A stretch of 41,693 bases of DNA. Origin: a virus. The DNA lies in IMG/VR virus record IMGVR_UViG_3300042505_001242, positions 1-41,693 of that record. One strand, given 5' to 3'. Below the pieces are notes generated by a model, which worked only from the letters and a program-made list of their open reading frames with translations, was not told the DNA's origin and did no database searches. A program made the position numbers and the translations under genes. Positions 29,530 through 41,693 of the stretch are shown one piece after another (within the stretch, counting starts at the first letter, position 1; every line of letters starts with the position of its first letter).

Positions 29530-31653
29530 CTACCTACCCATCTTGTCAATCAGCGCCGCACGTCGGGCCGCCATCTCCTCGCGGGTGATGTGCTTTCGCA
29601 CCACCTTGTGGGTCTCGGCTCCGACGGCCGACACGCCGACGACGCTGGCCGCCACCGCGGATCCGACTAGACCGTCGAGCCAATGGTTGTCGCGGCCCGG
29701 GATGAGTTGCCATTCGTCCACCGTGCGGCCGGTCGATTTGTTTTCGGTGCGAGTCGGATACTCACTCGCGATGTGGTCGAACAGCATCTCGTGCCGACCC
29801 TGGTGGAACGTGAACGCGATCGGGTCGTTAGCGCCCAGCTTCATGCGGCCTGCGATCAGCGATTTCCACCAGTTCGTGTCGTACAAAATGTGCCGCTGTT
29901 TCTTGATCGTCGAGGTCCGCCAGTTGGCACCGACACGCTCGCCGGGCTCGGCCTTGCCGTCGCTCATCGTCCGGCGGCTGGCACCGACGTATCGGCCGTG
30001 CGATGGCATGAGTCGCGTCCCGTGCCGCGACCGGCGGGCGAAGTCTCTCGTCACGTCTGCGGTCTGGGCCCAGTTGGCATCGACCAGGAGAAGGGCGACC
30101 CGGTGGACGGCGTCGGAGTCCTCGGACTCAAACTCGCGGTCGAGTATTTCGCGGGCGACCACCTCGAGCCCCAGGTGCATAGCGTCAGCCAACGGGGCGT
30201 TGCTTGCGGCCATCCGCAGGGTCTTCTCCACTTCGCGGAGAGCGAAATACCCGCGGTGCTGGTCAGGGTAGGTGCCGTAGGCAACGACGTGGCCCCGGAG
30301 CTGCGGCCCCCACGCCGTGACGACCCAGTAGAGACATGCCTCCTGCACGTCAACAAACGCCGTCAGCGTGTTGCAGCCGGCCGGGACCACGCCCGCCGGG
30401 ACGTTGATCGCGTGGCTGGAAAGGTCCGCCGGCCGGACGGCGTCGGTGCGGGACTCGTCGGCGAGTGGCTCCTGCTGGTACTCGCTTGCGAACACTTCCG
30501 GGCCGTCGTCGATGAGGGCGTTGTAGAAGTGCTGGACCGCGGACAGCTCTTGATCGCGGTCGTAGCAGTGTGCCCAATAGACCTCGCACCCCTCATCCAT
30601 CGCCTCGCGGTTCGTGCGGTAGAACTCGGTCGCCTCCCGCCACGCCCGGAGTTGGTCGCCGTCGATCTCTTTGTCGTAGGTCTGGCGGATGCGTTTGTAA
30701 TCGCCCATCCACAGATCGTCGTGCCGCTTCGCCCACGCCCGCACGGCCTTCACGCGAACGCCCTGCCATGCCGGGTCGGCGAGCAGTTGGTCGATCACGT
30801 CGTCGCGGGCGATCACCGTCGCATTGCACACGACCGCGAGAGTCTTGCCGTGGCCGCCTAGCTTCAAGATGTTTTTCTTGATGATCGCCAGCCGCTTGGC
30901 GATCTGCACCGCGGATGCCGCCGACTCGTCGGTCTGAATGTCATCAAGAATCACGAGGTCCGGCCGGGCCTGGACGCCGTCGGCACGCTTGTAGCGAAGG
31001 CCGCGGGACGACGCCATGAGCCCGTGGCACGAGACGATCGCACCGCTCGCCTTACTGCCGGGAATCTTCGGCAGCACGATCGTGTCGGCCGTCCACTCGA
31101 TGTGTGTCGACTCACCGCGGAACGTCTGCCCGGAGCAACGCTGCGGCTTGCCCTCCAGAGCCCGCACTGGATGGCAGACCTCCGGAAAATCCTCGTACAA
31201 CAAATCGTTCTCGGTCAGTTCCATTTTGATCGAGTCGATCGACATTTGGGCCTTAGTCGACTCGCTGCCGAACACGGCGACGAACGACCGGCGACCGGTG
31301 AGGCCGCACCAGATAGCGAACACCTCGGACCTCGTCGTCTTGCCCGATCCTCGCGGGAGGGCCTCGATCGACCGGCCGCCGTTGTCGGCCGCGTCCTGGC
31401 AGCGGGTGTTGCCACGCTGGTGGTCGGGCGACATGGGCCACTGCCCGGTGGAGTGCGGGAAATACTCGACAGCGAAATACTCAAACGACGCTTCGGCTTG
31501 CCGCCGGCGGTCCGGGTTCTGCACCGGCGGGATCTCACCGATGTCCGCACCGCGGCGGGTCCGCTCGCGCGTCCGCTCGATGTCCTGCGTGCGTTTCCGC
31601 TCGGCTGCAGCGACCTGGTGCTCCGGTGCGGATTTGGGTCTACCCACTGCCAT
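29530..31653 (-). CDS. Terminase large subunit (GpA-like)
   Basis: A 707-aa protein. The N-terminal ATPase has Walker A EALPRGSGKTTRSE (residues about 98-107) and Walker B DLVILDDIQTDES (about 232-244). The C-terminal nuclease region begins near 440 with LTAFVDVQEACLYWVV and has LLLVDANWAQ near 540. It powers DNA translocation into the head and cuts the concatemer. The general plan and lambda-like neighbours favour the GpA family, which would suggest cos packaging, but cos was not identified. ATG 31653 overlaps the upstream resolvase; GTG 31647 is an alternative start. Confidence 0.85.
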   Translation of the reverse strand: MAVGRPKSAPEHQVAAAERKRTQDIERTRERTRRGADIGEIPPVQNPDRRRQAEASFEYFAVEYFPHSTGQWPMSPDHQRGNTRCQDAADNGGRSIEALPRGSGKTTRSEVFAIWCGLTGRRSFVAVFGSESTKAQMSIDSIKMELTENDLLYEDFPEVCHPVRALEGKPQRCSGQTFRGESTHIEWTADTIVLPKIPGSKASGAIVSCHGLMASSRGLRYKRADGVQARPDLVILDDIQTDESAASAVQIAKRLAIIKKNILKLGGHGKTLAVVCNATVIARDDVIDQLLADPAWQGVRVKAVRAWAKRHDDLWMGDYKRIRQTYDKEIDGDQLRAWREATEFYRTNREAMDEGCEVYWAHCYDRDQELSAVQHFYNALIDDGPEVFASEYQQEPLADESRTDAVRPADLSSHAINVPAGVVPAGCNTLTAFVDVQEACLYWVVTAWGPQLRGHVVAYGTYPDQHRGYFALREVEKTLRMAASNAPLADAMHLGLEVVAREILDREFESEDSDAVHRVALLLVDANWAQTADVTRDFARRSRHGTRLMPSHGRYVGASRRTMSDGKAEPGERVGANWRTSTIKKQRHILYDTNWWKSLIAGRMKLGANDPIAFTFHQGRHEMLFDHIASEYPTRTENKSTGRTVDEWQLIPGRDNHWLDGLVGSAVAASVVGVSAVGAETHKVVRKHITREEMAARRAALIDKMGR

Positions 31654-32110
31654 GCCTCGCGTACCAGTGTGCAAGGAGTGCCGCGTCGGCCCGACCGTCG
31701 TCCTTGACCCTGGCGAACAGCTCCGCGTGCCGAGGCCAGAGCCGGCTCGCCACCAGCCGGTGCTCGCCCTTGTCCCGGCTGACGCCAACGGCTTTCGTCC
31801 ACGACTGCGGGCGGACGAGGGTCAGCGGATAGCCGAGGGCCGAGACCACGCCCTCGACCAGGCCGAAACCGCGGCCGAAGTTGAACGCCGAGGTGGCCCC
31901 GGAGCCTTGAACGCCCTGGACGTGCTCGAGGACGACGTGGTTGGGCTGGAAGGGGAAGCCTCGCTGCACGAGGTGGGCCAGCCGGGCCGCGTCGATCACA
32001 CGCTTGCCGCGGACCTCCGCGACCGGCATATCGAGGACGTGGAGGCCCTCTTCAGAGACGAGGGCGAGAGCGCCGCTGAGACCGGGGTCGATGCCGAGGA
32101 TGATGGTCAT
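31640..32110 (-). CDS. RuvC-like Holliday junction resolvase
   Basis: A 156-aa protein with the RuvC/RNase H fold signature: IILGIDPGLSGALALV (first Asp, residue 7), a Glu in VVLEHVQGVQGSG (near 61) and DDGRADAALLAHWY with the final acidic residues. It cuts branched DNA before packaging. The start overlaps the LexA-like gene (ATGA), and its 3' end overlaps the terminase, so replication intermediates, resolution and packaging are coupled. Confidence 0.85.
   Translation of the reverse strand: MTIILGIDPGLSGALALVSEEGLHVLDMPVAEVRGKRVIDAARLAHLVQRGFPFQPNHVVLEHVQGVQGSGATSAFNFGRGFGLVEGVVSALGYPLTLVRPQSWTKAVGVSRDKGEHRLVASRLWPRHAELFARVKDDGRADAALLAHWYARHGSG
31660..31673. promoter_or_regulatory. Phage operator, site 5 (CGTAC-N4-GTGCA)
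   Basis: Matches the palindrome in nine of ten fixed positions, 7 bases upstream of the terminase start, inside the end of the resolvase gene. It may control a terminase promoter, though no clear hexamers were seen. Confidence 0.45.
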
Positions 32111-32337
32111 TGCGTCACCTCCACCACCCGCACCGTCCTGGCCCGCCCTTCGTCCCACGTCACCCTCCCGTCGCGCCGCAGCCGCCAGAGCTTTTGCTGC
32201 ACGTCCGAATGGATCGACCCGATGACCGCAGCGATCTCCCGCATGGTCGGCGGATAGCCGCGCTCCGCGGTCAGGTCGACGATCGCGTCGATGACCGCGA
32301 GCTGCTTGGGGGTGGTGGTGGTGGTGGCGGTTGTCAT
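32107..32337 (-). CDS. LexA DNA-binding-domain-like winged helix protein
   Basis: A 76-aa protein with a threonine run at the start and the LexA N-terminal HTH pattern TAERGYPPTMREIAAVIGS followed by a short wing. It lacks the LexA protease domain, so it cannot self-cleave. Such stand-alone domains act as repressors or help the replication protein. It lies between the initiator and the resolvase (ATGA overlaps both sides). It is a candidate binder of the recurring palindrome. Confidence 0.7.
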   Translation of the reverse strand: MTTATTTTTPKQLAVIDAIVDLTAERGYPPTMREIAAVIGSIHSDVQQKLWRLRRDGRVTWDEGRARTVRVVEVTQ

Positions 32338-33314
32338 GCGGGGCCTCCGGCTTTCTGCGACTTGATGGCGAGGAACTCAGCACGTCGCCTGGAGACCTCC
32401 GGATCCTCGACGGAACGCTTCCACTCGGCTGCGGCGTCAGCCGCAGAGCGGCGATCGTCTGGCCGCTTCGCGGCCTCGCGGTGAGTGCCGCCGCGGTCCT
32501 GGCAGTTGTTGAGCCAACTCGTCGTCAGCCACTTCCGCCAGTTCGACTTCTTCGCCTTCTTGGGATTCGCCTTGAGCCATTGGGTGGCCCGGGCCAGCTC
32601 GACCGGGATGTCCGCAGCCGGGTAGGCCGCGGCCCATTCGGCGAGGTCGGGATCGCCGATGCCCTCCCACCCTGCGCTAGCAGACCACCGGATGGAGTCG
32701 GTCGGCTCAGAGCCGGCCCGCGGAGCGGGACTGCTCGGAGCACAAGAGGAAAAGGGAAGAGGGAAAGAGGAAAGAGGAAGAGGGAAAGAGGCGCAAATCG
32801 CCGGGAAACTTCCCGGCTCCGTCGTTGGACTTCCCGGCTCCATCGTTGGACTTCCCGGTTTTGCGTTTTCCTCGGGAAAAACCGCACTTTTGTCTGGAGC
32901 AGCTACATTGCCGGGAAAAGCCGGGAAACTTCCCGGCTCTGTTGTTGGATTTCCCGGCTCCAGCGCCGGACTTCCCGGTTTTCCTCCGTTTGGGGGTGGC
33001 AGGAACCCCTCCGAACGCTCTTCTGGGTGGCATCTTTGGTGCTCCCGGAACTTGGGTATTTCGAGCACCCGCTTGTCGCCCGCTTCGTAGGCGCGGACGA
33101 AGCCCCTGTCGGCGAGCTGCTTCAGCAGGTTCGCCATGTCGCAGTTTTCGTAGGGGAACAACTCGGCCTTGATCCGCATGGGGCGGTTCTCGAGGCGGCC
33201 ATCGCGGTCGGCGAGGGTCCATAGGCCGATGAACAGGAGGCGTGCCATCGGCTCGCACTCGGCCAGGTGCTCGTTCTTGTAGAACGACGGCTTGATGCTA
33301 CGGGCGCGTGCCAT
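32334..33314 (-). CDS. Replication initiator-like protein with embedded origin repeats
   Basis: A 326-aa protein. The start MARARSIKPSFYKNEHLAEC then a winged-helix-like region (to about residue 85, LLKQLADRGFVRAYEAGDK) matches phage replisome organiser proteins. Residues about 100-165 are a low-complexity linker encoded by the iterons (PGSPTTEPGSFPAI repeated), then a basic C-terminal part (KANPKKAKKSNWRKWL). AGGAGG precedes ATG 33314. It likely binds the repeats in its own gene and loads host helicase. Confidence 0.8.
   Translation of the reverse strand: MARARSIKPSFYKNEHLAECEPMARLLFIGLWTLADRDGRLENRPMRIKAELFPYENCDMANLLKQLADRGFVRAYEAGDKRVLEIPKFREHQRCHPEERSEGFLPPPNGGKPGSPALEPGNPTTEPGSFPAFPGNVAAPDKSAVFPEENAKPGSPTMEPGSPTTEPGSFPAICASFPLPLSSFPLPFSSCAPSSPAPRAGSEPTDSIRWSASAGWEGIGDPDLAEWAAAYPAADIPVELARATQWLKANPKKAKKSNWRKWLTTSWLNNCQDRGGTHREAAKRPDDRRSAADAAAEWKRSVEDPEVSRRRAEFLAIKSQKAGGPA
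32744..32990 (-). repeat. Origin-like array inside the initiator gene
   Basis: Six 21-bp iterons in two clusters of three (32808-32870 and 32928-32990, units start ACTTCCCGG, 120 bp apart), each cluster next to the palindrome CCGGGAAACTTCCCGG (32801-32816 and 32921-32936). Adjoining is an uninterrupted 48-base purine tract at 32744-32791 on the + strand, lower in GC than its surroundings. Iterons plus an easily melted tract inside the initiator gene is the lambda O/ori layout. Confidence 0.75.
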
Positions 33315-33831
33315 ATTCGGCCTCCTGCTCGTCTTCGTGACCAACGCAAATGTTCATGGGACGCTGCCTCACGCCTATGGCGTCCGCATCTTGGTAGATG
33401 GCATCAAAAACCATATGGCTATTACACGAGAACCATTCGCCGGCCACCCGATACTTGCGCAGGCTTTTGTGAACTGCCGACTCAAGTTCGTATGCCTCGC
33501 GATCGTCTCGCACGCGGCAAAAGCAAACCACGCGAAGCTGACTTGCGTTTCCTGTCTGAAGCTGTTTCATCCTCTTCTGCAGCGAAACCGCCTTGCCGAC
33601 CTTGTGCATTGATCCGTCCGTGATCGCATACACAACAGTTGTTTCCGGGTTTAGTTTTCGCTGGCGAAGGATGCTCGCTACGTTGAGAAGCCACGCCGCG
33701 AATCGTTCACAAGTTTCCGCAAAAAGAGGCTCGCCGGTCTGGATGTTTATGTTTACCGCCGGCCCAAAATCATCAAGCTCGTTGAAAATGGCGTAGCCGC
33801 TTGCGAACTCGTCAAATAAGTGACTATCCAT
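33298..33831 (-). CDS. T5orf172/MUG113-type GIY-YIG-like protein (first of a pair)
   Basis: A 177-aa protein. The C-terminal domain (VVYAITDGSMHKVGKAVSLQ with an RMKQLQTG turn, then ELESAVHKSLRKYRVAGEWF) has the order and key residues of the T5orf172/MUG113 group of the GIY-YIG nuclease fold, associated with DNA cleavage in phages. The N-terminal 80 residues are unassigned. GGAGG lies upstream of ATG 33831. Base composition is visibly poorer in GC than neighbours, suggesting later arrival. Confidence 0.7.
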   Translation of the reverse strand: MDSHLFDEFASGYAIFNELDDFGPAVNINIQTGEPLFAETCERFAAWLLNVASILRQRKLNPETTVVYAITDGSMHKVGKAVSLQKRMKQLQTGNASQLRVVCFCRVRDDREAYELESAVHKSLRKYRVAGEWFSCNSHMVFDAIYQDADAIGVRQRPMNICVGHEDEQEAEYGTRP

Positions 33832-34399
33832 TGACCACCTCCATGCTGGTCGGGTCGGCCACCAAAGCGTCGCCGTCGCAATAAGATTCGCGATCATGCA
33901 AAAACATCCATCTTGGCCCGTTTTTGTCGGTTGCAAGCCTTGACCGAGATTTATTACATCCAGCAATCCACTCTCCACGAATCCAGAAGCCAGCAGACGC
34001 CGAGGAAGCAAGAAAGGAAGTCTCAACGCTCAACGCAGCCCTTCGTGATGTGCATTGAATAGACGTACAACTGTCAACGCGAAGTAACGGGCACGCACCA
34101 TGCTCAAGAGTCCGTGACTTTACGTTCCAAGTTACTCCAACCTTGAAGATCGTCATTGAGGGAACAACTGTTTTGAGTTTTGCAAGGTAAACGGCACACG
34201 GACCTTTTCCGTCGCAGTTGCCTCTTGGGTGTATTGCAGTCTCAAGGTCGTACATCCGTCGCATTTCATTCCACGTCCTAACAGGACTTCCTTTCCACGG
34301 AATCTCTATCCATAGGTCGCGAGGCTTTTGTCCACTCAAGGCACGAAACACCGCTCTGTTTGACTCTGCGCTCACGTCGCACCTCCAGTTGCTTTCCAT
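33824..34399 (-). CDS. T5orf172/MUG113-type GIY-YIG-like protein (second of the pair)
   Basis: A 191-aa protein. It contains VYLAKLKTVVPSMTIFKVGV and TWNVKSRTLEHGACPLLRV, then AALSVETSFLASSASAGFWI: the strand-turn-helix core of a GIY-YIG-like nuclease, diverged from the neighbour at 33298. It carries CDGKGPC and other cysteines. The gene is less GC-rich than its surroundings. Two adjacent members may mark a homing or selfish insertion between the winged-helix gene and the initiator. Confidence 0.6.
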   Translation of the reverse strand: MESNWRCDVSAESNRAVFRALSGQKPRDLWIEIPWKGSPVRTWNEMRRMYDLETAIHPRGNCDGKGPCAVYLAKLKTVVPSMTIFKVGVTWNVKSRTLEHGACPLLRVDSCTSIQCTSRRAALSVETSFLASSASAGFWIRGEWIAGCNKSRSRLATDKNGPRWMFLHDRESYCDGDALVADPTSMEVVNG

Positions 34400-35810: not shown

Positions 35811-36004
35811 GTTGTCACCTCTGGTGTGTAGGGCTTGGTACTGATCTTCACGATCCGGTCGGCGTCGCCCACGAGGGCGTCGTCGATGATGGCCTTGGCA
35901 CGGTTGAAGGAGACCGCACCACGCTTGAACGCGACCGCGGTGTCCTCGACGAGCTGCATGGCCGCCGCGTGGCGGGCCTCCTCGTCACGTTCGACCTGGT
36001 TCAT
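35807..36004 (-). CDS. Hypothetical early protein, 65 aa
   Basis: A 65-aa helical, charged protein (MNQVERDEEARHAAAMQLVE, then ALVGDADRIVKISTKPYTP) overlapping both neighbours by four bases. It lies between the AAA ATPase and the SSB-like gene. Its sequence does not match a family known to me. It may be a small partner of the ATPase. Confidence 0.55.
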   Translation of the reverse strand: MNQVERDEEARHAAAMQLVEDTAVAFKRGAVSFNRAKAIIDDALVGDADRIVKISTKPYTPEVTT

Positions 36005-36915
36005 GCTGGAACCTCCTGCGGTGAGAGTTCGTCGTGCTTGGCACCGATCAGCGATCGGAGGGTGTCGGCCTGCTCCGGCGTCAGCTTGCCGGCCGACTCC
36101 GCGGAGTCGACGGCGTCACCGACGGCTCCGAGCTGCTCGACCGAGTCGCAGTCGGCGATCCGGTCCCGCCAGCCCTTTGGCTTCGGTGTCGAGGCCGGGG
36201 CCGGCACGTCGGCGAACAGCGGGGCGAGGCCCTCGATGGTCATGGGCAGTTCCGGGGCGAGCCCGTAGCGGTTTTTGGCGTCAAAGGCCGCTGCCCGCTC
36301 GGTGTGCAGCACCCGCTCTTTGCCGCCCTTGGCCCGGGTGCGGCCATCCTCGCCCGCGACGAGTCGGGTCTTGTAGTTGGCGAACAGAATGCAATCCGCC
36401 CACTCCTTCACAAGCGGCCCGCTCTGTTTGGTCAGTTTCAGTTCAAACCGGTCGTAGCCCTCGTCCATGTCGGGGGGGCTGCACCGCTTGACGGTGGTGT
36501 GGCACACGATGACCACGTTGATGCCACGCTCCACGAGTGAGTCGCAGACCGTGAGGAAGCGACCGATCGCCTCCGCGACCATCGTGTAGCCTTTCCCAAA
36601 TCCGAAGTCTTCGATGCTCCGCTTCTGGGCCTTGGAAAGAAGGTTCTCAATGAGGAGCCGCTCCAGCCAATCGCCGGAGTCGATCACGACCGTCTGGTAT
36701 CCCTGCGAGTCGCGAGCCAACTCGTGCAGGGTTCCCTCGGCCTCGAGGTAGTTCGTGATCGTCACCCGATCCACGTCGAGGTGGTTCGTGCCGTCCTCGG
36801 TGTCGAGCACCAGGGGTTTCGGGAACTGGCTGGCAAGTGTGCTTTTGCCGATTCCCTCGACGCCGTGAATGACGACCCGCTTTGCCGTCTGCCGCTTTCC
36901 CTTCGTGATCTTCAT
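36001..36915 (-). CDS. AAA/RecA-like ATPase (Sak4-type recombination factor candidate)
   Basis: A 304-aa protein. Walker A is GVEGIGKST (residues about 18-26), Walker B YQTVVIDSGD (near 80), with NVVIVCHTTVKR (near 145) as the sensor region. The C-terminal domain (around 250-304) is helical. AAA_24/Sak4-type phage ATPases act like RecA with an SSB neighbour, and the gene next door encodes the SSB-like protein. It starts at ATG 36915, an ATGA overlap with the previous gene. Confidence 0.8.
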   Translation of the reverse strand: MKITKGKRQTAKRVVIHGVEGIGKSTLASQFPKPLVLDTEDGTNHLDVDRVTITNYLEAEGTLHELARDSQGYQTVVIDSGDWLERLLIENLLSKAQKRSIEDFGFGKGYTMVAEAIGRFLTVCDSLVERGINVVIVCHTTVKRCSPPDMDEGYDRFELKLTKQSGPLVKEWADCILFANYKTRLVAGEDGRTRAKGGKERVLHTERAAAFDAKNRYGLAPELPMTIEGLAPLFADVPAPASTPKPKGWRDRIADCDSVEQLGAVGDAVDSAESAGKLTPEQADTLRSLIGAKHDELSPQEVPA

Positions 36916-37139
36916 ACTTTTATTCCCTCTTTTCGTGCCCACTCTTCCAACTGCCTCACGGCCGTGCGGACCATCCGCACGTCACCGTCAAAACTCCTGC
37001 TATAGCCCTCGACCGCACTGACACTCGTGAGCATCAATCGTGCGGCCCGGAGCAACTTCAACGCCCGGCAAATGCCCAGCGAGTGGCGGCCGTCCGCCGC
37101 TTTCACGCTGGCTCTCTTCGGATCGATTCCACTTGTCAT
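36912..37139 (-). CDS. Hypothetical early protein inside the csrA-like 3' end
   Basis: A 75-aa basic helical protein (LGICRALKLLRAARLMLTSV). Its start ATG 37139 has a strong GGAGG within the csrA-like gene, which it overlaps by 140 bp. It could be a small DNA or RNA binding protein. The overlap suggests coupled translation or that one of the two frames is partly spurious. Neighbours on both sides use four-base overlaps, which supports this gene. Confidence 0.55.
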   Translation of the reverse strand: MTSGIDPKRASVKAADGRHSLGICRALKLLRAARLMLTSVSAVEGYSRSFDGDVRMVRTAVRQLEEWARKEGIKV

Positions 37140-38702: not shown

Positions 38703-39641
38703 ATGACGCGAGGGATGCCAGTCAGGGAGTTAACGACGAGATACGCGAGAGTCCGGGAGCTGAAGCCGAAGACTTTGGCTCTGTACGAGATGATGTGGGC
38801 CAGGTTTGAGCGGTTCCTCGAGCGGCCAGCGACGGTTGGTGATCTGAACGTCGACACGGTCTCCGAGTACATCGAGTGGAGGAAGGTCACGCCGGGGTGG
38901 CGGGGCCGATTGCCGAAGCCGGCCACGGTGCGGCGGGATCGGAACATGATCCGTGCGACCTGGGAGTACGCCGCGCGGCGGAAGTTTGCCGACGAGTTCC
39001 CCGAGGTGCCTCGCGTGCGGGTGCCGGAGTCGATCCCCACCGGTCGTGCCTACACCGCCGACGAGGCGTCGGCGTTGATCCGCCAGGCGAGGCACCGCAT
39101 CGGCAAGGTTGGCGGGTTGCCGGCGAAGTGGTGGTGGCCGACGCTGCTTTACGCTGCGGTCTGTAGTGGTGAGCGATTTGAAGCGTTGACGAGCATCAAG
39201 TGGGCGCAGGTCGACCTCGAGCGGCACACGATGTTGTTCTTGGCCGACACGCGGAAGGGGAGCACGAGAGACATCGTGCGGTCGATCACGCCGCGCCTCG
39301 CGACGATGCTGGCCGAGCACCGTCGAGGAGACGACGATCTCGTGTGGCCGTGGGACCGGAAGGGTCGGTCACAGTGGGCATCGCTTCAGGTGCTATGCCG
39401 GACCGCCGGCGTGGAGTATCGCGGGCGAGGATTCCATGGATTTCGCCGGATGGCGGCGAGTTATCTGGCGGCCAAGTTTGGCAGGGGGGCGGCGACCGAG
39501 CTGCTCGATCACTACGACCCCAGACTTCAGAGGGTATATGTCGATCCGCTGATCTGCCCGTCGACGTTCAACTCGCTGGCCGGGTTGCCGGAGCTGGACA
39601 TCGACGATCCGGAGCCTCCGAGGATCGTTCCTGCGGGGTGA
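38703..39641 (+). CDS. int: Tyrosine site-specific integrase
   Basis: A 312-aa protein. N-terminal SAM-like core-binding region (around 1-95), then the catalytic domain: Arg in VCSGERFEALTSIKWAQ (near 155), Lys in TRKGSTRDI (near 185), FHGFRRMAASYL with His-x-x-Arg (near 250), LLDHYDPRLQRVYVDP with the nucleophilic Tyr (near 285). It integrates and excises the phage. The ATG at 38703 has GGGAG seven bases upstream; the longer open frame to the left is not coding. A 10-bp-stem terminator follows. Control is probably by operator site 8. Confidence 0.92.
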   Translation: MTRGMPVRELTTRYARVRELKPKTLALYEMMWARFERFLERPATVGDLNVDTVSEYIEWRKVTPGWRGRLPKPATVRRDRNMIRATWEYAARRKFADEFPEVPRVRVPESIPTGRAYTADEASALIRQARHRIGKVGGLPAKWWWPTLLYAAVCSGERFEALTSIKWAQVDLERHTMLFLADTRKGSTRDIVRSITPRLATMLAEHRRGDDDLVWPWDRKGRSQWASLQVLCRTAGVEYRGRGFHGFRRMAASYLAAKFGRGAATELLDHYDPRLQRVYVDPLICPSTFNSLAGLPELDIDDPEPPRIVPAG

Positions 39642-39661
39642 TCGCGGTCCGGGGGTGGCGT

Positions 39662-39690
39662 CGGCCGCCGCGATCAGCGGCGGCCGTTTT
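39662..39690 (+). terminator. Intrinsic terminator of the integrase gene
   Basis: CGGCCGCCGC and GCGGCGGCCG form a 10-bp perfect stem with loop GATCA and end in TTTT, 20 bases after the stop codon. Confidence 0.85.
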
Positions 39691-39779
39691 GGGGGGCATT
39701 CCGGGGTCCTGGGGCCGTTTCGGGAGTCGGAGTGGCATTGGGTGTCGTTCGCAGCCGGGGCAAGGGGCGTGCCAGAGGC

Positions 39780-39900
39780 CGGAAGGACCCCCAAGGGGGG
39801 GGTACCCCCCCATAGGTGGCGATGCACCCCCTGACGTGGGGGAAACCCCACGAGCGGGGGGGTAGCCATGTACCCCCTGAGTCGAGGGGGTAGTGCGCAT
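39780..39900. repeat. Second array of C/G-tract hairpins
   Basis: GGGGGGGTACCCCCCC (39796-39811), CGTGGGG-GAAA-CCCCACG with a GNRA tetraloop, and TACCCCCT-N6-AGGGGGTA follow each other. Together they resemble the tracts at 360-470, which lie about 2 kb away on the closed circle. Between 39642 and 40064 no gene was found besides the terminator and this array. Confidence 0.65.
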
Positions 39901-40064
39901 GTTCTGCGCAGCGGCTTTTGATCGCATTTTGAACGCTGAAAAGCAGCGGTGCCCGGGATTCTAGCAGACTCTCGAGGGGCGGACGACACCAATAGTTTCG
40001 CGTTTACTAGGTGTCCGGCGGGCCCGCGGTTTCAAGTCTGGCTCGGGATTCTTTCACGCTCCCC

Positions 40065-40092
40065 TTGTCTTATGTCGATAGGCTCATATACT
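40065..40092 (+). promoter_or_regulatory. Promoter of the GP88-like gene
   Basis: TTGTCT (40065-40070), 16-base spacer and TATACT (40087-40092), five of six at -10. Transcription would start about 40099, 51 bases before ATG 40150, which has ACGGAG upstream. Confidence 0.6.
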
Positions 40093-40149
40093 CGTGACAT
40101 GCGAGCGGACGATTGAACCGCCGCGTTACCTTGAAACGGAGCCGATACC

Positions 40150-41154
40150 ATGGCGACACGCCCCACGCCCGCTGAGCTGACAAGCGCCACCCCCCGCGGC
40201 ATTGATGCCGATAGCAAAGTAGCGCACATCTTGGGAACTAACACGAAGCTAGAAAAACTTCCGAACGGCCGCGAAGTTATCAACTCCGGCGTCACGATGG
40301 CCCCCTCGAAGCGCAGCGGCATCGTCAACGTTTGCAAATGGGCCACCGCGGCATGCATCGCGACATGTGTGCTTTGGTTTGCCGGACGACGAGCAGGGGC
40401 CCGCATGCGGGAATGTGCTCGCAATGTGACGAAGCTTTGGTATTTTTGGCCCGAGCGGTTCTATGCCAGATACGATCGGGAGTTGTCGAATCAAGAGAAG
40501 CGCGCCGCGGCGGAAGGGCTGGAGTCGTACCATCGGCCAAATGTAGCCTCCGATCTGGATCATGATCGTATCGTGTCGGCACATCCGTCGACGACGTTCT
40601 ACGATTACACTGCAGGGTTCGAGCGGATGTGCTCGTATCTCGATGGCAAACTTCCGGCGAACTATCACCTTACATTTAGCGTCAAAGAATCGACCCCTTA
40701 CGAGCACATCGAGCACATTCTTTCCCGCGGGGGTAATGTCGCCGTCGTCGTCGACACCTACTATTGGGGCCCGACCCATCGGTATGGTTTGCTGCCTGAG
40801 TCTGCCGTGTTCTTCAATGCGAGCGTGCCGGGCATGTTCATCAATTGCCCAGTGATCGATGGCGATCGGCACGACATCCGCACGCCGGAATTTGACGGCC
40901 GCGGGAAAATGATCGGGCTCCGTCTTAAGGCGCAGTCAAATAAGGTGAAAGCTTTGGCCCGGGCCAAAGGATTCGCGAAGTCTTTCACGCTGGGCGGGAA
41001 AGAGCATTCCACCCGGGGGGAGATGCTGCAGCGTGGGTCGATCACGATTCAGCTGCAGTCTGAATCGCCCGCGCCCAGCTGCTCCAGCGGATGTGCCGGA
41101 TGCCCGTCGGCTCGTCGGGCCCCCGCCGCTGGTTTGCTTCCCATATTGAACTGA
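40150..41154 (+). CDS. GP88-like phage protein of unknown function
   Basis: A 334-aa protein. ILGTNTKLEKLPNGREVINS, then GIVNVCKWATAACIATCVLW with spaced cysteines (C62, C69, C73) and a basic helix (ARNVTKLWYFWPERFYARYD) resemble the GP88 family of phage and plasmid proteins, whose role is not established. There are more Cys near the end (CSSGCAGC). A shorter form of the genome, deduced from bases 1-107, would remove all but about 83 residues. It stands alone downstream of its own promoter, next to palindromic DNA. Confidence 0.5.
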   Translation: MATRPTPAELTSATPRGIDADSKVAHILGTNTKLEKLPNGREVINSGVTMAPSKRSGIVNVCKWATAACIATCVLWFAGRRAGARMRECARNVTKLWYFWPERFYARYDRELSNQEKRAAAEGLESYHRPNVASDLDHDRIVSAHPSTTFYDYTAGFERMCSYLDGKLPANYHLTFSVKESTPYEHIEHILSRGGNVAVVVDTYYWGPTHRYGLLPESAVFFNASVPGMFINCPVIDGDRHDIRTPEFDGRGKMIGLRLKAQSNKVKALARAKGFAKSFTLGGKEHSTRGEMLQRGSITIQLQSESPAPSCSSGCAGCPSARRAPAAGLLPILN

Positions 41155-41693
41155 GCGCCGCCGATCGATCGAACGCCGGCCCCGGCCCCCCGGGGCCGGT
41201 TGCAATTGGTGGCCGATCACATCCGCCCCCGGGGCCCGCCCGGGGGCGGATGCAATTGACCGCCTCACGAGTTTGCCAGCACACGAGCACCGTCGCCGAT
41301 CACCTGCAGGGCCCGCGGTGCTCGAGCACCGCACGACACGAGCACCGCACCGGCACCGCACGACATGAGCACCGCACGACATGAGCACCGCACCGCCGGC
41401 ACCGGGCCCGGTTCCGGGGGGTGTCGTGGGTCGACCCCGGCCCCGGTCGGGCTTCCTGCGCGATCCTACGGTGCCGATTCCGGGCCCGCGGGGCCCGCGG
41501 GCAGGGGTCGGGGCCCGGTCCGGGCCCCTGCTCGCGCCGGCTCGCGTCGCCGATCGCCTGCAGGGCCCGAGCACATCCGGCGGGCCCGATGTGCTCGAGC
41601 ACCGCGGCCGCGGTCGTGCGTCGTGCGTCGTGCGTCGTGCGTCGTGCGTCGTGCGCGACGACGGAAAAATTCTGTGGTCGAGACTTGCCGACC
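41155..41693. other. Palindrome-dense non-coding region
   Basis: No gene is supported here. A perfect 13-bp hairpin (41221-41251, ATCCGCCCCCGGG arm), the 18-bp palindrome GCGGTGCTCGAGCACCGC (41315-41332), CCGGCCCC-CC-GGGGCCGG, CCGCGGCCGCGG and tandem GAGCACCGCACGACAYGAGC-like units (about 41320-41400) fill the space. GTCGCCGATCRCCTGCAGGG is repeated at about 41291 and 41546. It ends with the 127-base overlap. The density suggests an origin, recombination hot spot or structured transcript. Confidence 0.6.

Follow-up and report, generated by a model that had tools for sequence, protein, structure and literature searches.

The window was the whole 41,693-bp stretch of IMG/VR virus record IMGVR_UViG_3300042505_001242. 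Its minus strand carried a replication initiator gene, with a series of DNA elements nested in the part of the gene that encoded the protein linker:

32334–33314, minus strand: replication initiator gene (326 aa), composed of a winged-helix N-domain, a disordered linker, and a C-domain.
33015–33314, minus strand (codons 1–100): DNA-binding domain of predicted winged-helix fold, presumed to bind the iterons (pLDDT mostly 83–94).
Residues about 112–203 of the initiator, minus strand: disordered linker in the AlphaFold2 model (pLDDT <50 at 114–121, 128–143, and 148–203).
32910–32982, minus strand: tract-distal iteron cluster (CCGGGAA at 32911, inverted repeat at 32920–32937, and cores at 32930, 32951, and 32972).
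32800–32862, minus strand: tract-proximal iteron cluster (inverted repeat at 32800–32817 and cores at 32810, 32831, and 32852).
32790–32796, minus (coding) strand: TTGCGCC box at the tract edge, conserved among homologues.
32744–32791, minus strand: 48-nt strand-asymmetric tract, a heptamer array and presumed unwinding element (pyrimidines on the coding strand).
32705–32741, minus strand: 37-nt hairpin GCTCCGAGCAGTCCCGCTCCGCGGGCCGGCTCTGAGC (coding strand), with the layout GCTCcGAGC...CCCGC tcc GCGGG...GCTCtGAGC.
32481–32702, minus strand (codons 205–278): C-domain, the presumed contact for a helicase or helicase loader (pLDDT mostly 85–92 in the full-length AlphaFold2 model).

In a profile search, residues 1 to ~110 of the initiator matched the PHROG "replication initiation protein" families 16167 (E 3.9e-42), 12556 (E 2.8e-35), 1408 (E 1.3e-21), and 2149 (E 1.3e-18); the protein matched no Pfam family at E ≤0.1 and no NCBIfam family. 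The best Foldseek matches of the AlphaFold2 model were winged-helix proteins, all of them weak (E 0.02–0.2), and those of the N-domain included 4pql and 4pt7 ("Structure of initiator"; E 0.066–0.089, TM 0.44–0.45 on target), which we take to be RepA_N family structures. The C-domain fold search against the PDB gave no usable match, the full-length initiator query found no relative in bacterial genome contigs, and megablast of the first 20 kb of the window found no match in phages.

The initiator gene was followed directly by a gene for a 76-aa protein (32107–32337, minus strand) that consisted of a LexA DNA-binding domain only (E 2.9e-13) and is possibly a repressor without the autocleavage domain. 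A helicase or helicase-loader gene was not found directly downstream in the window, where the next products were this LexA-type DNA-binding protein and a RuvC-like resolvase, and none of the genes tested near rep could be recognised as one. Also on the minus strand, a Sak4-like single-strand annealing ATPase (PHROG 124, E 1.5e-49) was encoded at 36001–36942 and a T5orf172/MUG113 (GIY-YIG-type) protein at 33298–34026, immediately upstream of rep. The linker of the Mx8 p19 initiator held a segment resembling the T5orf172/MUG113 domain, and some Pseudomonas phages had an HNH-like domain there, suggesting that nuclease domains invade this spot of the initiator linker (linkers L052 and L051).

Positions 1–109 of the window equaled 40293–40401 (100%), and 101–234 equaled 41560–41693 (99.3%); as these end matches indicate, the contig is circularly redundant with a unit of about 101–41559, and its first 100 bases are probably chimeric. 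The related genome G001 (L142–L144; 41,759 bp), from the same phage group, was a circular permutation and largely syntenic over 2042–39610 of the window, and the segment past the integrase (39611–41693 plus 1–2041) had no counterpart of >200 bp in it. Tandem arrays were located near the contig ends at 154–196, 494–548, 41323–41393, and 41613–41655, with the units GTCGTGC (six copies), TGGACAACCAA (five copies), and 16- and 27-bp units. It is extremely unlikely that the true origin lies elsewhere, for example at 494–548, with the linker element being secondary: TGGACAACCAA did form a clear tandem array there, but the array had no match in the records of five relatives (some of them fragments) and belonged to the segment without a counterpart in G001. 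The sequence-only reading had named this site, as 495–549, as an alternative start. That reading had also proposed GC skew as a check. The cumulative minimum lay near 38 kb rather than at 32.7 kb, at the same place as a change in gene orientation; because it follows gene orientation, it is uninformative on the origin, and GC skew was set aside as non-decisive.

TTCCCGG cores were found on the plus strand at 32810, 32831, and 32852 and at 32930, 32951, and 32972, with 21-bp spacing within each set, and a ninth core, CCGGGAA, absent from the sequence-only reading, was found at 32911. The window contained 13 TTCCCGG/CCGGGAA sites, 9 of which were packed within 178 bp. The earlier count of six 21-bp iterons in two clusters of three held for the six cores and their 3 + 3 arrangement but not for the complete 21-bp unit CCGGGAARTCCAACGNNGGAG, which occurred in only four copies (two exact and two with 2 mismatches, compared to 0.02 expected; four copies were reached by 0/100 shuffles). 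The palindrome reported beside each cluster was recovered in both cases: the inverted repeat CCGGGAAACTTCCCGG was present at about 32800–32817 and 32920–32937 and nowhere else in the record, and the right arm of each copy was the first core of its cluster.

The two clusters were 90%-identical copies with 120-bp spacing. The tract-distal cluster was missing from several relatives, and L005/L018 lacked 120 bp comprising one iteron cluster, a length equal to the spacing of the two copies. Relatives as distant as about 70% identity retained the CCGGGAA run adjoining the tract, though in a smaller number of units, and the coding-strand CCGGGAA counts were 7 (L022), 6 (window), 2–3 (L024, L027, and L028), and 0 (L042 and L045). 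CCGGGAA sites were sparse or absent in relatives at 50–60% identity, so they appear to be either lineage-specific or not essential. Since relatives had 0–7 such sites and L005/L018 were without one cluster, the duplicated three-iteron cluster is best read as a lineage-specific amplification and was ruled out as the key feature.

The purine run at 32744–32791 was exactly 48 nt, as first described, and the next-longest purine run and the longest pyrimidine run of the window were 11 and 13 nt, respectively. The run was itself a 7/21-bp repeat, and its lag-7 periodicity was matched by 0/200 codon shuffles, in which the protein and its codon usage were held fixed. Its stability was among the lowest 1.1% for 48-bp windows, yet it was not the least stable DNA of the record. 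The strand bias of the tract was present throughout the clade. As for the box at its edge, TTGCGCY was found in 37/38 of the gene linkers that carry the C-A-[FSL] motif, compared to 1/96 N-domain halves. All these elements lay, as had been stated, inside the minus-strand initiator ORF, where they encoded PGSPTTEPGSF and SFPLPLSSFPLPFSS.

Thirteen close relatives were fetched, and synonymous differences were averaged over invariant-residue codons of the window and seven relatives. The mean synonymous difference was 0.009 in codons 160–204, compared to 0.244 in the N-domain and 0.241 in the C-domain (codons 205–284) (permutation p < 5e-5), and 26 of the 27 invariant-residue codons within 160–204 were without any synonymous variation. 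Between L026 and L027, synonymous differences numbered 0/38 in codons 160–204, 30/88 in the N-domain, and 29/86 in codons 205–326. The amino acids of codons 160–204 did vary (3–7 of 38–45). Because synonymous sites were nearly frozen here while amino acids changed, the linker DNA is conserved more tightly than the protein requires, so that the DNA, and not the peptide alone, is under selection. In addition, 146 nt of the window linker lay in exact repeats of at least 11 nt, compared to 15.6 nt in codon shuffles, none of which reached 146.

The comparison was also applied to a homologue sample of 91 complete unique sequences in 65 clusters, which were gathered with conserved-peptide patterns and did not constitute a census. 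Exact repeats in the linker exceeded codon shuffles (p < 0.05) in 49/65 clusters. The 7-nt periodicity of the tract had a median z of 2.42, with z > 2 in 37/65 clusters and with lags 14, 11, and 15 also raised, compared to a median z of 0.10 and 3/65 clusters above 2 for the N-domain control. Typically, across the 65 clusters, the linker tract consisted of DNA repeats of roughly 7 nt that did not keep to the codon register. The commonest motif was GATTCC, with 125 copies in linkers, 6 elsewhere in the genes, and 16 reversed, and it was in more than one reading frame in 27 of the 30 genes that had at least two copies. Codon choice in LIPD/IPDS contexts likewise differed from that elsewhere: GAT for Asp (100% vs. 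39%), ATT for Ile (92% vs. 30%), and CTG for Leu (98% vs. 35%). Repeats upstream of the tract were significant (p < 0.05) in only 28/61 clusters, leaving about half without them, so the iteron part is less uniform than the tract in this family.

These data bear on a reading at the coding level, namely, a proline-rich flexible linker that had grown by slippage or unequal recombination and had no role as a DNA site. The linker was indeed disordered in the model (pLDDT <50 over the three stretches listed above), and its repeat number changed by whole 7-codon units, as slippage would give; however, synonymous sites were frozen, codon shuffles abolished most repeats and the 7-nt period, and, because seven is no multiple of three and one DNA heptamer was read in several frames, the period goes beyond what peptide repeats alone would produce. 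Purely peptide-level repeats were thus strongly disfavoured, and this reading is very unlikely.

The sequence-only reading had placed the element at 32744–32990, an interval that contained the parts it listed but stopped short of the hairpin at 32705–32741. The 37-nt hairpin was gap-free across 20 distinct sequences, with 86.9% pairing compared to 30–39% with slid partners. Compensatory changes were seen at pair 8/30 (15 GC and 5 CG sequences) and pair 5/33 (14 CG and 2 TA sequences). Covariation scored 0.101, with 0/500 shuffles as high, a significance that relatedness inflates and that came from few independent events, and five sequences (L030 type) had a shifted inner stem. The search for the strongest hairpin gave p = 0.067 for the window alone and was significant across the family; the hairpin of the window was therefore accepted because of its conservation and covariation. 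Across clusters, the post-tract hairpin was stronger than its codon-shuffled counterparts (p = 5e-8, Wilcoxon), unlike the N-domain control (p = 0.08); the paired comparison gave p = 2e-4.

An RNA element would show an identical hairpin and synonymous constraint, and the elements were located on the coding strand in a fixed orientation; the tract and hairpin might accordingly act in the rep mRNA, through translation, stability, or operon attenuation. The adjoining iteron-like double-strand sites and the element order matching that of lambda point instead to DNA, the Rfam search matched no family, and the tract kept its composition while its sequence differed by lineage, leaving an RNA-level element unlikely. 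Another kind of DNA site within the initiator gene, serving packaging, partition, or initiator autoregulation, is quite unlikely: a terminase gene (29530–31788) was nearby and iteron arrays are also used for partition and copy control, but in the isolate phages examined the homologue was surrounded by genes for replication and regulation, and no terminase was annotated less than about 2 kb away. In most of these isolates, the homologue was followed, directly or nearby, by a gene resembling DnaC, DnaB, or a primase/helicase.

Taken together, the stretch of the initiator gene that encodes the linker is very likely the theta-type in-gene origin of this phage, combining iterons with a melting tract and a hairpin; its anatomy, the selection on its DNA, and its recurrence in the family were observed, and we infer binding, melting, and origin activity. 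Its conserved core, as delimited by the homologue comparison, is composed of the TTGCGCC box, the strand-biased tract, and the 37-nt hairpin, to the exclusion of the duplicated three-iteron cluster. For this in-gene origin, the following course is proposed: (i) the N-terminal winged-helix domain would bind CCGGGAA sites, with the inverted repeats taking a dimer; (ii) the 21-bp units, equal to two helical turns, would stack more initiator copies on the same DNA face; (iii) the nucleoprotein complex would strain the adjoining heptamer tract, leading to its opening with one strand held specifically, a precedent being the binding of a single strand of a repeated unwinding element by plasmid Rep proteins (PMC4081077); (iv) the hairpin beyond the tract may serve as the bubble boundary or as a loading mark for helicase or primase; and (v) the C-domain might recruit the host helicase, as proposed given that the genes beside rep in the window included no recognised loader.

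The three-part design recurs in a wide phage family. It is conceivable, at somewhat less than even confidence, that the linker DNA of a large initiator family conceals an origin of three parts, in which a strand-specific array of ~7 nt (GATTCC, CCCTTAA, and TTTCCTC types) is bound single-stranded and a hairpin sets helicase/primase loading, with the peptide linker being largely a by-product. If this is true, low-complexity linkers such as DSLIPDSLIPDS, FNPSTFNPSTS, and SFPLPLSSFPL would be translated origin DNA; many phages and prophages with none mapped could have their origins predicted from sequence; and a single-stranded repeat code in phage initiators would become directly testable. DnaA and RK2 TrfA read a single-stranded repeat code. 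A description of an in-gene origin for this broad phage initiator family was not found in the literature searched.

The in-gene origin is a textbook feature of lambda. The in-gene layout of the lambda O gene and ori-lambda (PMC6022878 and PMC7466680) was compared with the present one: in the lambda record, iterons at 535–621 of L141 preceded a tract rich in A and in purines, after which came a palindrome at 663–690 (12-bp arms). Both systems thus shared a mid-gene origin in which iterons, a strand-asymmetric tract, and a palindrome are ordered toward the C-terminus, and the lambda-style plan of iterons plus a tract inside the initiator gene, as first proposed, gained support from the family match, the helicase-type genes at or near most isolate homologues, the DNA-level selection, and this element order. 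Stx phages have six iterons compared to four in lambda (PMC7466680), so iteron number varies between relatives there, as in the present family. The present origin differed in its iteron sequence, its 21-bp half-site layout, and its GC-rich context, and its tract was pyrimidine on the coding strand, whereas that of lambda was purine/AT-rich. Of the differences from lambda claimed initially, that in sequence stood, while the duplicated cluster proved not to be a conserved part.

Among other phages, gene 18 of P22 and phage L encodes lambdoid initiators with distinct iterons within their own genes (PMC8022706), and these iterons (about 20 bp in P22 and 11 bp in L) differed from the present ones. 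In Pseudomonas phage MD8, repeats within an O-like gene were read as favouring a mechanism like that of lambda (PMC8508860); they were mentioned in passing, without analysis of a tract, hairpin, or selection. Among plasmids, the N-domain of pSK41 Rep, a RepA_N initiator, binds Rep boxes situated midway along rep, the ori-encoded linker is dispensable as protein, and the C-domain recruits replication proteins (PMC5703833), a likeness to the present initiator in the central position of the presumed N-domain boxes in rep and in the encoding of the linker by the proposed ori. Profile searches for a RepA_N domain gave no Pfam or NCBIfam match; as for lambda O, no Pfam family was matched (E ≤0.1) and lambda was not among the 40 tblastn phage matches listed. 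Judged by sequence, the initiator is a member of neither the lambda O nor the RepA_N family. Phage in-gene origins are already known as a kind, and the present case is a variant of it.
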